Part shown: positions 41,835 through 46,544 of the stretch, in pieces
Layout: every line of letters starts with the position of its first letter
Numbering within the stretch: position 1 is the stretch's first letter
Source: Acetobacteraceae bacterium
GTDB taxonomy: Bacteria > Pseudomonadota > Alphaproteobacteria > Acetobacterales > Acetobacteraceae
Assembly: GCA_022842185.1 (NCBI GenBank)
Contig: JALHQB010000014.1
Coordinates: 1 to 64,000, forward strand
DNA length: 64,000 nt
Direction: 5' to 3'
Program-made: the position numbers and the translations under genes
The notes under the pieces: model-generated
Told to the model about the DNA's origin: nothing
The model's database searches: none
What the model saw: only the letters and a program-made list of their open reading frames with translations

Positions 41835-42044
41835 CTATGCCGTGACGGCGTAGCCTTCCTCCGCCACCGCCGAAACCACGGCGTCGCGCGGCAGAACCGT
41901 CCGCGTCCTGACAGTGCCCGCCGCAAGATCCACCGCCACCACCGCGTCGGGGTCGCGCGCACGGATCGCATTGGTCACGGCCTTCACGCAGTGGTCACAG
42001 GACATGCCCTCCAGCGTCAATGTCATGGTCGGGCGTTCGGTCAT
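41835..42044 (-). CDS. copZ: Copper chaperone (HMA domain)
   Basis: A 69-residue single heavy-metal-associated domain. The Cu(I)-binding motif GMSCDHC places cysteines at C16 and C19. The remaining beta-alpha-beta pattern (VKAVTNAIRARDPDAVVAVDLAAGTVRT.. AVVSAVAEEGYAV) is typical. It hands Cu(I) to the exporter CopA. The start at 42044 has AGGA five bases upstream; 42050 and 42026 are alternatives. It follows cueR after about 10 bases, so copA-cueR-copZ form one minus-strand operon. Confidence 0.9.
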   Translation of the reverse strand: MTERPTMTLTLEGMSCDHCVKAVTNAIRARDPDAVVAVDLAAGTVRTRTVLPRDAVVSAVAEEGYAVTA

Positions 42045-42054
42045 CGTCATCCTA

Positions 42055-42444
42055 CTACTCCAGGCGTGCGAGGTCTTCGAGGATCGGGCAATCGGGCCGG
42101 TCGTCACCATGGCAATGGTCGGCGAGGTGCCTGAGGCTGCCGGCCATGTTGCGCAGCATATCCGCCTTGGTCTCCAGCGCGGCAACATGCGCCAGTGCAA
42201 GCCGCTTCACCTCGGCGCTCGCCCGGCCGCGATCGCGCCACAGCGCCAGCAGTTTCCGGACATCGGCCAGCGGAAAGCCCAGGTCGCGCGCATGGCGGAT
42301 GAAGCGCAGCACGGCCACGTCGCGTTCGTCGTACACGCGATACCCATTGCTGCTCCGCGCCGCGGCGACCAGGCCGATCGATTCGTAATGGCGGATCATC
42401 TTCGCCGATACGCCGGACCGGCCGGCGGCCTCCCCGATATTCAT
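42055..42444 (-). CDS. cueR: Copper-responsive MerR-family regulator
   Basis: A 129-residue MerR protein. The N-terminal winged helix ([26 protein letters not shown], 1-26) and [19 protein letters not shown] are characteristic. The metal loop has C111 and C119 ([10 protein letters not shown], Cys-x7-Cys), the same spacing and near-identical positions as the Cu(I)-binding Cys pair of CueR. The gene overlaps the copA stop by four bases (ATGA) and sits between copA and copZ. It probably activates the copA promoter, where a CueR-like dyad is present at 44845-44867. Confidence 0.92.
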
Positions 42445-44816
42445 GATGCGACCCCCGCGGGCCGCCAACGGGCCAGCAGCAGCGCGCTCGCCAAAACACT
42501 GACCGAGGACGCCGCCATCGCCGCGCCGGCCACCACCGGCGAGAGCAGCCCGAAGGCTGCGAGCGGCAATCCAATGACGTTGTATCCAAAGGCCCAGGCC
42601 AGATTGTGCCGGATCCGCGCCCGTGTCCGTCGCGCGATGTCGAGCGCCGCGGGCACCAGCGCCGGGTCCCCGCGCAGCAGCGTGATGCCGGCGGCCGCGA
42701 TCGCCACATCCGTCCCGGTCCCCATGGCAATGCCGAGATCGGCCTGCGCCAGCGCCGGCGCATCGTTCACGCCGTCGCCCACCATGGCGACCTGACGGCC
42801 CTCCTTCTGCCACGCCGCGATGCGCGCCGCCTTGCCATCCGGCAGCACCCCGGCCGCGACGTCATCGAGGCCGAGGCGCCGGGCGGTGGCCTCGGCCGCT
42901 TCGGGGATGTCGCCCGACAGCATAGCCGCGCGCATGCCCATCGCGTGCAGGCCGGCGATCGCCGCGGCCGCGCCCGGCTTCTCCGCATCCTCGAAGGCGA
43001 GCAACGCCAGCGCGCGGTCGCCTTCGATCAGCCAGGCCAGGCTGCGCCCCTGCGCGGCTTGCGCGGTCGCGACGTCCGACAGCATTCCGGCCTCGGCGCC
43101 GCGTTCGGCCAGCAAGCGCGGGCTGCCGAGGGCGACATGACGCCCATCCACCACGCCCTCCACGCCACGGCCCGGCAGTGCACGGAAATCCGCGGCGGGC
43201 GCGACCGCTCCGCTCACCGCCAGCACCGCGCGGGCGAGCGGGTGTTCGCTGCCCGCCTGCAACGCGCCCGCCAGGCGCAGCGCCGCATCCTCCGTCATAC
43301 CCGGCGCGGCATGCAGGGCGGCGAGCCTGGGCTTGCCTTCTGTCAGCGTCCCGGTCTTGTCGAAGGCGACCAGGGTGATCCGCTGCGCGCGCTCGATCGC
43401 CTCGACGTCGCGCATCAGGATGCCGGCGCGGGCCGCCGCGCCGGTGCCGGCCATGATCGCCGCCGGGGTCGCCAGGCCGAGCGCACAGGGGCAGGCGATC
43501 ACCAGCACCGAGACCGCCGTGATCACCGCGGCTTCGATCCCCGCACCGGCAAGCAGCCAGCCGATCAATGTGAGCGTGGCGATCGCCAGCACCACCGGCA
43601 CGAAGATCGCGCTCACCCGGTCCACCAGCTTCTGCACCGGCGCGCGGGATGCCTGGGCGGCCGCGACCAGCGCGGCCACGCGGGCGAGCACCGTCTCCCC
43701 GCCCACCGCGCGGACCTCGATCACCAGCCGTCCGTCCAATGCGACGGTGCCGGTCGAAATCGTCGCGCCGGGATCCTTTTCGACCGGGCGGCTTTCGCCG
43801 GTCAGCGCACTTTCATCGACGCCGGCGCGGCCGTCATGCACCAGGCCGTCGGCGGGGATACGCTCGCCAGGCCGCACCACGATGCGGTCGCCGACGGCCA
43901 GGGCCGCGGCGGGCACCTCGACTTCCTGGCCGTCCTCGATCCGGCGGGCGGTGCGTGGCGCGAGGTCGAGCAGCGCGCGGATCGCCGCCCCGGTTGCGCG
44001 CCGCGCCCGCGCCTCCAGCCACTTGCCGAGCAAGATGAAGAACACGACGACCGCCGCGGCCTCGAAATAAAGGCCATGCGCGGCGTGTTCGGCGCCATGC
44101 CGCAGCAGCAGGCCCAGTGACAACGCCCAGGCCGCGCCGGTGCCGAGTGCCACCAGCTGGTCCATGTTGCCGCTGCCCGCGCGCAGCCCGGCCCAGCCGG
44201 CCCGCCAGAAGCGCGCGCCAAGGCCGAAGGTCACGGGCGTGGCCAAAGCCAGTTGCCACCACGGCCCGGGCATCCAGTCCTGCCCCACGGCCATGCCGAT
44301 CATGCCTATCAGGAACGGTGCGGTCAGAACGGCCGCGATCAGAAGATCTCGCCGTTCCCGCGCCGCGCCGGGGTCCGCCGCCACTGCTTCCTGCGAACCG
44401 ACCAGCCGATAGCCGGCGGCGGCCACGGCCGCGCCCAGCGCCGCTTCGCCCGTCCCGGCTACGACGCGCAGATGGGCGCGTTCGGTCGCGAGGTTGACCG
44501 ACACCTCCAGCACCCCCGGCACCCGTGCCAGGGCCCGTTCCACCCGGCCGACGCAGGACGCGCAGGTCATGCCACCGATCGACAGGTCGAACATGGCTTC
44601 CGGCACGCGATAGCCGGCCTTCACGACGGCGGCGGCGAGGGCGTCTGGCGCGGCGGTACCGACAAGCTGCGCCTGGCCGGATGCCGGGTTCACCTCGGCA
44701 TCGATGACGCCGGGTACGGCCAGCAGGGCGCGCCGTACCCGGCCGGCGCAGGCGGCGCAGGTCATGCCTTCGACGGGCAGCGAGGACCGCGACGGAGAAA
44801 TTGACGCTTCGGGCAT
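42441..44816 (-). CDS. copA: Cu(I)-exporting P1B-type ATPase
   Basis: A 791-residue membrane pump exporting Cu(I) (or Ag(I)) from the cytoplasm. Two N-terminal HMA domains have GMTCAAC (~17-23) and GMTCASC (~83-89). Eight membrane helices include the transport motif [12 protein letters not shown]. The phosphorylation motif is [10 protein letters not shown], with a soluble ATP-binding domain and [26 protein letters not shown] at the hinge. The CPC and HMA sequences favour monovalent copper. It is first in a copA-cueR-copZ operon and its promoter carries a CueR-like operator. The ATG at 44816 is followed by a short Ser-rich leader. Confidence 0.95.
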
Positions 44817-44836: not shown

Positions 44837-44867
44837 GAGATGGGCCTTGCCATGATGGGAAGGTCAA
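44837..44867 (-). promoter_or_regulatory. CueR-like copA promoter/operator
   Basis: On the minus strand, TTGACC (44867-44862) is a -35-like element. A near-perfect dyad CCTTCCC-ATCAT-GGCAAGG overlaps it (plus strand CCTTGCC 44845-44851 and GGGAAGG 44857-44863, one mismatch). A 19-base spacer to CATCTC (44842-44837) reproduces the over-long spacing of MerR-type promoters such as E. coli copA. The -10 match is weak, so exact spacing is tentative. Confidence 0.7.
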
Positions 44868-44915
44868 GCATTGGCCGATTGAATCATTCGCCGCCCTGTA
44901 CGACATGGTGACAGC

Positions 44916-45320
44916 ATGATCCGACACCGACTGCTCCTTCTGGTCGTCCTCGCCTGGGCCAGCCCGGCCCTGGCACAGAATGAGCCGTTCCGAATCGTCA
45001 ACGGTGCAGGTGTGCCGGCGACGACGTTGAACATCGTGCGGGCCGGCCAGGACGGCTGGGGGTCGAACCTTCTGTCGCGCGGGCCGCTCAGGCCGGGGGC
45101 GCAGTTGTCCATGCGACCACCCGAAGGGGCGGGTTGCCGGTTCGACCTGCGCCTGCTGCTTCAGGATGGGCAGGAAATCATCCGGCGCGATGCCGATGTC
45201 TGCCAGGACCGGCTGCTGGTTGTCGGTGGAGAGGCCGCTGCACCGCCATCATCGCCCGGCCCCCTGCCGCAGGTGGGGGGCGGCGACCGGCTGCTGCCTT
45301 CGGTCGGCGGTCGCAATTGA
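44916..45320 (+). CDS. Secreted protein with the same domain as the downstream protease
   Basis: A 134-residue protein with a signal peptide cut near LAQNE (~residue 21). Residues ~22-100 match the N-terminal domain of the serine protease 150 bases downstream: EPFRIVN, DGWGSNLLSRGPLRPG, then the strongly shared PxEGAGCRFDLRLLLQDGQEIIRRDADVC. Two conserved cysteines (in GAGCRFDL and ADVC) are in the same spacing in both proteins. The last ~30 residues are Pro/Gly-rich and low in complexity. No catalytic residue is seen. The protein is a stand-alone version of the protease's front domain, so it could be a partner, a decoy or a substrate-binding subunit. Confidence 0.75.
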   Translation: MIRHRLLLLVVLAWASPALAQNEPFRIVNGAGVPATTLNIVRAGQDGWGSNLLSRGPLRPGAQLSMRPPEGAGCRFDLRLLLQDGQEIIRRDADVCQDRLLVVGGEAAAPPSSPGPLPQVGGGDRLLPSVGGRN

Positions 45321-45470
45321 ACGGCGGTGGCCGCCACCGTTTTCCCCCGGCCGCCATGCCGAATTCGCTGCTCACACCCGGCAGGAAACGGATAAGAACC
45401 TCGTGAATAGTATCACTGGTGGACCGGGGACGACGTCCACAAGACGCTGGAAACAAGGCGCCAGGACACG

Positions 45471-46544
45471 ATGAAGCCGCTTTTCGTTTTTCTCTCGACC
45501 GCGATGCTTGGCCTGGCCGCGCCCGCCGCGCAGGCCCAGACCGAGCCATTTCGCATCGTCAATCGTACACCGGGCGCCGCGACCGCGCTGTATGCCGTGC
45601 GCAGCGGCAGGCCGGATTGGGGCGGCAACCTGCTGAACCGCGGGCCGATGCCATCCGGCGGCCAGTTTGCGCTGCGGCCATCCGAGGGGGCGGGCTGCCG
45701 CTTCGACCTGCGGATGGTGCTGCAGGATGGCCAGGAGGTCGTGCGCCGCAACACCGACATCTGCACCGAACGCACGGTGACGATGACCGTCCCGCTGGGC
45801 CTGGCACCCCGCGCCGTGCCGGGCGCCATGCCCGAGGCCAAGCCGCCCGCCGAGGGCGCGGCCGGTGCCCCCGGCCCTGCCACGCCCCCCGGCGCGCGGC
45901 CGAACCCGCGGGCGCGTGCATCGTCGGGAACAGGCTTTGTGGTGGCAAGCGACCGCGTGATGACCAACCATCACGTCGTCGAGGCTTGCTCGCGCATTTT
46001 CATCCGCACCGCCGACAACCGCACCCTGCCGGTCACGCAATCGCCGGTGACGGATGCGCGGCGCGACCTCGCCGTGCTGCGCGTGTCGGGCAACCCGGGC
46101 CCGGTGCTGGCCTTTCGCGCCAATCCCGTGCGCCGGGGGGAAAGCGTCGTGACGTATGGCTTCCCGCTCGCGGGGCTGCTGTCCTCCGGGCCGACGCTGA
46201 CGACCGGCGAGGTCAGCGCGTTGTCGGGCCTCGGCGACAACCAGACCCAGTTCCAGATCAGCGCACCGGTGCAGCAAGGCAATTCCGGCGGGCCGCTGCT
46301 GGACCGGCAGGGGCATGTGATCGGTGTCGTGGTGTCCAAGCTGAATGCGGCGCGCGTCGCGCAGCGCACCGGCGACATTCCGCAGAACGTCAACTTCGCG
46401 GTGAAGGGCAGCGAGGCCTTGGACTTCCTGCGCCGCAACAACGTCACGCCAGTCATGCGCGAAAGCCCCAATGGGGAACGCAGCGCCGCAGAAATCGGCG
46501 AGCAGGTGCACGCGTCCACGGTGATGATCCGGTGTGAACGGTAA
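45471..46544 (+). CDS. Secreted trypsin-like serine protease with N-terminal accessory domain
   Basis: A 357-residue periplasmic or secreted protease. Residues 1-22 are a signal peptide. ~24-108 are an accessory domain shared with the upstream protein. ~110-148 are a Pro/Ala-rich linker. ~150-357 are a chymotrypsin-fold (DegP-like) catalytic domain. The catalytic triad is H168 in TNHHVVE, D199 in RRDLAVL and S272 in GNSGGPLL. No PDZ domain follows, unlike DegP/DegS. Cleavage specificity is unknown. The pair with the upstream gene and their near-identical front domains suggest duplication or splitting of this domain and a functional link. Confidence 0.87.
   Translation: MKPLFVFLSTAMLGLAAPAAQAQTEPFRIVNRTPGAATALYAVRSGRPDWGGNLLNRGPMPSGGQFALRPSEGAGCRFDLRMVLQDGQEVVRRNTDICTERTVTMTVPLGLAPRAVPGAMPEAKPPAEGAAGAPGPATPPGARPNPRARASSGTGFVVASDRVMTNHHVVEACSRIFIRTADNRTLPVTQSPVTDARRDLAVLRVSGNPGPVLAFRANPVRRGESVVTYGFPLAGLLSSGPTLTTGEVSALSGLGDNQTQFQISAPVQQGNSGGPLLDRQGHVIGVVVSKLNAARVAQRTGDIPQNVNFAVKGSEALDFLRRNNVTPVMRESPNGERSAAEIGEQVHASTVMIRCER

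Follow-up and report, generated by a model that had tools for sequence, protein, structure and literature searches.

A two-cysteine beta domain shared by an exported serine protease beside copA and an adjacent small secreted protein in Acetobacteraceae

Among described proteases, two groups come closest to the exported enzyme considered here. Members of the HtrA/Deg family (DegP, DegS and HtrA1) likewise have an exported trypsin-like catalytic part, and the catalytic fold of our protein resembles those of DegS and HtrA1 with a Z of about 20. MarP (Rv3671c), a periplasmic serine protease whose front part spans the membrane, is the closest by sequence among proteins of solved structure (3k6z, E 1e-18) and also gives the top match in NCBIfam. 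By contrast with HtrA/Deg, no PDZ domain appears among the Pfam matches of our protein at E values up to 10, a different, N-terminal beta domain sits on a linker modelled with low confidence, and the score against the HtrA/Do family (TIGR02037, 83.8 bits) is far below the cut-off of 416.2. It differs from MarP in carrying a signal peptide and the beta domain at its front, and its score against the MarP family (NF033740, 103.2 bits) is below the equivalog cut-off of 250. A third comparison concerns gene layout. Effector-associated domains, as treated in PMC7159879, are common to an enzyme fusion and the adjoining gene, with trypsin-like and TIR enzymes among their partners; the domain described here follows the same layout but is exported and probably disulfide-bonded, and among its annotated neighbours no NTPase core component was identified.

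The locus lies within a window of 64,000 nucleotides, which is the whole stretch of DNA analysed (contig JALHQB010000014.1 of an Acetobacteraceae bacterium). Two open reading frames on the plus strand, at 44916..45320 and 45471..46544, encode secreted proteins of 134 and 357 amino acids and are separated by 150 bases (45321-45470), as stated in the first-pass annotation. The shorter product, a stand-alone domain protein (hereafter the solo) defined by its open reading frame and translation, is composed of a signal peptide, a domain located by profile match at about residues 21-105, and a Gly/Pro-rich tail. The longer product is a serine protease composed of a signal peptide, the same domain with two cysteines (45537..45797, plus strand; profile match and alignment), a Pro/Ala-rich linker, a trypsin-like catalytic part and a short C-terminal extension. 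Both signal peptides are of Sec type by inspection, reading ...SPALA/QNEPF in the solo and ...AAQA/QTEPF in the protease. The annotation had also proposed that the two proteins have a two-cysteine domain of about 80 residues in common, one being this domain with a Gly/Pro tail and the other its fusion to a trypsin-like part. Both proposals stand: the quoted block is present in the solo and in the protease (PPEGAGCRFDLRLLLQDGQEIIRRDADVC and PSEGAGCRFDLRMVLQDGQEVVRRNTDIC), the solo and the protease N-domain are 55% identical, a search of the source genome with the solo matches the protease front at E 1.2e-32, far beyond chance, and the catalytic part exceeds the Trypsin_2 cut-off. The Gly/Pro tail of the solo is more than low-complexity sequence, given that the motif PQVGG[GS]DRL was found by inspection in 6 of the 11 adjacent solos examined (13 are known); the window copy reads PQVGGGDRL (45267..45293, plus strand, also by inspection).

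The catalytic part is a member of Trypsin_2 (PF13365), with a score of 96.8 bits against a curated cut-off of 27.6, a core matched at 45927..46328 on the plus strand (99.4 bits) and an intact catalytic triad. The triad, assigned by inspection as His147, Asp178 and Ser251 of the first alignment row, is invariant in all 30 aligned full-length fusions, and so are four cysteines. A match of DUF5642 to protease residues 89-195 (E 0.029; 14.6 bits where the cut-off is 26.2) was not accepted. In the full-length model both domains are confidently predicted, whereas the linker between them (model residues 88-119, or 45795..45890 on the plus strand when converted by hand) falls below a pLDDT of 50. The first-pass annotation had called for a structure prediction of the domain on the catalytic site; with a linker pLDDT of about 41 and a pTM of 0.63, the full-length single-chain model predicts no fixed docking of the N-domain on the catalytic part. 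Full-length fusions are present in at least 67 of 299 Acetobacteraceae genomes by hand count, taking as such the rows whose match begins no later than profile position 5 and has E at or below 2.9e-141. Many of the fusion-bearing genomes, including the source genome (contig C75), also carry a paralogue that matches the catalytic part only. Among eight loci of the coded genus g4, three (L128, L130 and L135) have two whole domain-proteases in tandem, with no copA adjoining, and in another a further domain frame lies 1.7 kb off on its own.

AlphaFold prediction of the domain from a 55-row alignment gave an all-beta fold of six strands (pLDDT 93.1, pTM 0.81). Fold comparison of this model returned middling matches, such as 2mca with a Z of 7.2, while a Foldseek search against the PDB gave no match at E 0.001 or better and a PDB profile search gave a best E of 0.15, nothing usable. 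The VHL beta domain (PF01847) aligns with the model over about 75 residues with a Z of about 6 and an rmsd of about 2.9, tied with other beta folds. The likeness may be one of similar beta-sandwiches, and no sequence relation was found: PF01847 gave no match in a Pfam search of the two window proteins or of eight paralogue sequences, and an hhalign comparison with six bacterial VHL rows gave E 0.076 over 11 columns, so no VHL kinship is claimed. Of 289 genomes of the class, 6 encode small proteins that match VHL itself (PF01847; L103-L109). The two cysteines are highly conserved in the domain, the second in all 150 distinct sequences and the first in 146. Because they flank a hairpin in the model (strands 55-62 and 67-74), a disulfide bond between them is likely. 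The four domains that lack the first cysteine (L050, L051 and L052 of the source genome, and L077) have one just before the first strand instead, which makes a swapped disulfide likely; they form a single clade (97/91), and the swap would therefore be one event. No conserved His or Met was seen in the alignments, so the domain has no evident copper site.

Divergent from the pair, on the minus strand, lie genes of copper efflux. The adjoining copA (42441..44816, copper-translocating P-type ATPase; TIGR01511, 538.2 bits, cut-off 397) and cueR (42055..42450, Cu(I)-responsive MerR-family regulator; TIGR02044, 152.5 bits, cut-off 147.4) both score above curated cut-offs, which identifies a copper-efflux neighbourhood. 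They are accompanied by a CopZ-like heavy-metal-associated protein (41835..42050, minus strand), whose start is not established and whose best CopZ model scores 50 bits (cut-off 85, E 2.9e-13). The pairing of the fusion with copA is conserved among relatives: a divergent copA (E below 1e-60) within 2.5 kb was counted at 49 of 73 fusion loci, or 47 of 71 distinct ones, this set being no random draw but one composed of best hits, named loci, g4 loci chosen for a second domain and 40 loci from the list of full-length fusions. At 20 loci of the paralogue without the domain, neither a divergent copA nor a domain frame was found (0/20 each). By hand count the adjacency occurs in 13 of 18 coded genera, the exceptions being g4, g6, g64, g73 and g76. 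The 24 fusion loci without divergent copA within 2.5 kb include all ten g4 loci tested and all loci of g6, g64, g73 and g76; at only three of the 24 (L174, L181 and L184) does the contig end on the side where copA would lie, and L173 has copA at 3.2 kb. At the compared loci outside the source genus, copA is kept in all but L070, and the other window neighbours tested gave no match save GMC once, at L117. The RefSeq annotation of two Roseomonas plasmids independently shows the same order, namely a heavy-metal-associated protein, a MerR/CueR regulator, a P-type ATPase and a divergent trypsin-like peptidase. Between copA and the protease, L068, L117, L119, L180 and L183 have an additional open frame of about 250-330 codons that lacks the domain.

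A CueR-type promoter element directed toward copA (CTTGACCTTCCCATCATGGCAAGGCCC, 44842..44868, minus strand) agrees at 12 of 14 positions with what we take to be the CueR-type consensus. Including the window, an element of the consensus CTTGACCtTCCCATnaTGGGAAgCcCCAcaT faces copA in 44 of 48 loci, and a looser scan scored at least 11 of 14 in 27 of 50 upstream stretches as against 1.25% of 2000 mononucleotide shuffles. Toward the protease the element (pattern TTGACCYTSCC) was found in 0 of 48 loci, which by this pattern places neither the protease nor the solo in a CueR regulon; a promoter and terminator scan and an Rfam search of the region found nothing. Copper control of the protease is something we infer, from gene order rather than from expression. 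In PMC8224329, stalked cells of Caulobacter in PYE medium responded to copper with higher levels of two proteases of the DegP family and of one trypsin-like serine protease, which by analogy is compatible with the present protease acting in the envelope during copper stress. In PMC3140484, a single row in a table on the copRS comparison names a trypsin-like serine protease, a mention to which we give no weight, and a search of an open library with chosen terms returned no paper recognisable as dealing with this domain or with a trypsin-like protease linked to copA. The adjacency of copA and the domain-protease could also be an inherited gene order without a shared role. With an envelope protease tied to a copper-efflux locus in so many genera, a part for proteolysis in copper tolerance can be tested directly.

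The solo lies directly upstream of the fusion in 9 of 13 genomes of the source genus and is absent in the other four. L110 (Neoroseomonas terrae) and L114 (Roseomonas sp. CECT 9278), two more named loci, likewise have it beside the fusion, and it is doubled in L114 and in genome G292. The fusion itself is widespread outside the source genus, where it stands without an adjacent solo: none was found at other-genus fusion loci in two sets (0/8 and 0/40, 0/48 in all), nor at the Roseicella and Dankookia loci L116-L119. Co-conservation of the pair, which had been put forward as a check on the first-pass annotation, thus holds in most genomes of the genus but fails at the other-genus loci compared. 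The solo gene is under constraint. pN is lower than pS in all 55 solo pairs from 11 genomes, and over 55 pairs each from these genomes the median dN/dS rises from 0.21 in the catalytic part through 0.28 in the protease N-domain to 0.38 in the solo, the ratios being rough since synonymous sites are well diverged (median pS of 0.49 for the solo).

The explanation that we favour, tentatively and with confidence somewhat short of even, is an envelope protease associated with copper, which carries a recognition domain on a flexible tether and is accompanied, in the source genus only, by a soluble copy of that domain. The protease would be an exported, PDZ-less, trypsin/HtrA-like enzyme belonging to the divergent neighbourhood of copA, cueR and the copZ-like gene, and would most likely clear envelope proteins that copper stress has damaged or caused to misfold. 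The N-terminal domain of about 80 residues, a predicted beta domain that is probably disulfide-bonded, would serve as a flexibly linked module for recognition or anchoring rather than as a pro-domain. The solo, a close paralogue of the protease N-domain that is seen in the source genus only, would be exported to the same compartment, where it would probably bind the same partner or pair with the fused copy and so tune where the protease acts.

Neither Pfam, NCBIfam, PHROGs nor PADLOC contained a model matching the solo protein, and Pfam gave no match over the domain copies in eight paralogue sequences of the source genome; that the first-pass annotation recognised no named family for the domain agrees with these Pfam and NCBIfam searches of the window proteins and the eight paralogues. 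Sixteen copies in 10 proteins were seen in the regions examined of the source genome, where the 55-row profile gave 17 matches at 1e-4 or better. Domain matches at 0.001 or better occur in 206 of 397 Acetobacteraceae genomes, and profile matches at 1e-4 in 46 of 385 genomes of the class draw and 39 of 299 of the phylum draw, two draws that overlap. Outside the source genome, 47 of the 63 matches in the class draw fall within open frames no longer than 201 codons (hand count), and short proteins made mostly of the domain seem, from the part of them inspected, to be its commonest form. The domain is therefore a general exported module that is mostly found without this protease. It is a widespread one that no model in the searched libraries matches, and its partners include proteases and TIR proteins.

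A second pair in the source genome (L047:3443-5262, contig C40) involves such a TIR protein. It consists of a TIR part (PF13676, E 3.5e-21), a membrane span assigned by inspection, a Pro-rich stretch and the domain, and is followed directly downstream by a solo domain frame. The fusion protein was detected in 19 of 59 relatives at 1e-10, in some by one part only, and in 10 of 12 loci of the genus it is followed by the solo, the other two being cut by contig ends. Start codons of these downstream solos are not settled, and none is obvious in the source genome. The arrangement of a solo beside a fused copy is thus not special to proteases, and in both pairs the domain that is fused to an enzyme recurs in the neighbouring gene, in the manner of effector-associated domains.

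This recurrence bears on an alternative that we consider unlikely, although it survives better than the others, in which the domain is a homotypic or shared-ligand adaptor. Solos would bridge or cap the fused copies, and the protease outside and the TIR enzyme inside, joined to the domain through its membrane span, would answer one envelope cue. That a fused enzyme with an adjoining solo occurs in one genus with two unrelated enzymes, in 9 of 13 genomes for the protease and 10 of 12 loci for TIR, speaks for such an adaptor, and the effector-associated domains of PMC7159879 provide a precedent for its logic. However, in the tree the domains of the TIR pair lie apart from those of the protease pair, and the solo on the protease side is missing in 4 of 13 genomes of the genus and at all 48 other-genus loci. 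A more specific form, drawn by analogy, would make the domain an exported homotypic adaptor whose soluble copies pair with the copies on different enzymes, such that the outside protease beside copA and, via the membrane span, the inside TIR enzyme would both be controlled by a single envelope cue, which might be copper or damage to disulfides; we consider this form doubtful, ahead only of the inhibitor model below. Adjoining solos and fused copies with two unrelated enzymes offer a simple setting in which to ask whether enzymes are steered by exported adaptor domains.

A further alternative, improbable in our judgment though a little ahead of the single-cue model just described, regards the solo as a by-product of local duplication, for example a gene copy from which the catalytic part was lost, and gives it no function connected with the protease. 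Tandem duplication of whole domain-proteases does occur in g4 (L128, L130 and L135). The phylogeny can be read in more than one way. In a domain tree of 77 columns, built without the rows of L111-L113 and L115 and some of L017-L045, which were repeats, near copies or truncated, no domains lie closer to those of the proteases than the adjacent solos. When the tree is left unconstrained, protease domains from every genus fall into one starred set (99/90) that excludes the solos, which speaks against a recent origin of the solo inside the genus. AU tests, in which 19 of 126 rows (long-branch rows or paralogues) were left out, rejected none of the alternative clades, namely the 13 solos (p 0.65), the solos with the protease domains of their genus (p 0.54), as duplication would have it, and the 52 protease-type rows (p 0.57), which leave the solos out; the tree therefore does not set the direction between fusion and fission. 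By contrast, the excess of pS over pN in every solo pair, the retention of the solo in most genomes of the genus and its doubling in G292 and L114 argue against a by-product without a role.

The reading of the first-pass annotation, in which the domain is a built-in inhibitor or pro-domain and the solo a soluble inhibitor or competitor, draws on the closeness of adjacent solos to protease N-domains in the tree, on the common destination given by their signal peptides and on a tail motif that could be a peptide ligand, but was not upheld and is the least probable of all, possible yet not favoured, because a general exported module makes a protease-specific inhibitor or pro-domain less likely and because the domain is also fused to a TIR protein with a solo of its own, the linker is of very low confidence with a pTM of 0.63, and the fusion persists in other genera with no solo beside it. 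The solo may still be a soluble competitor or have a docking role.

Proteases with two or three domain copies in front are encoded at L074:232-2448 (outside the family), L136:2782-4218 and L141:1556-4915. A plasmid search with a five-copy paralogue gave no match; this paralogue, a secreted protein of the source genome, consists of five tandem copies of the domain (L048:3526-4983, contig C84).
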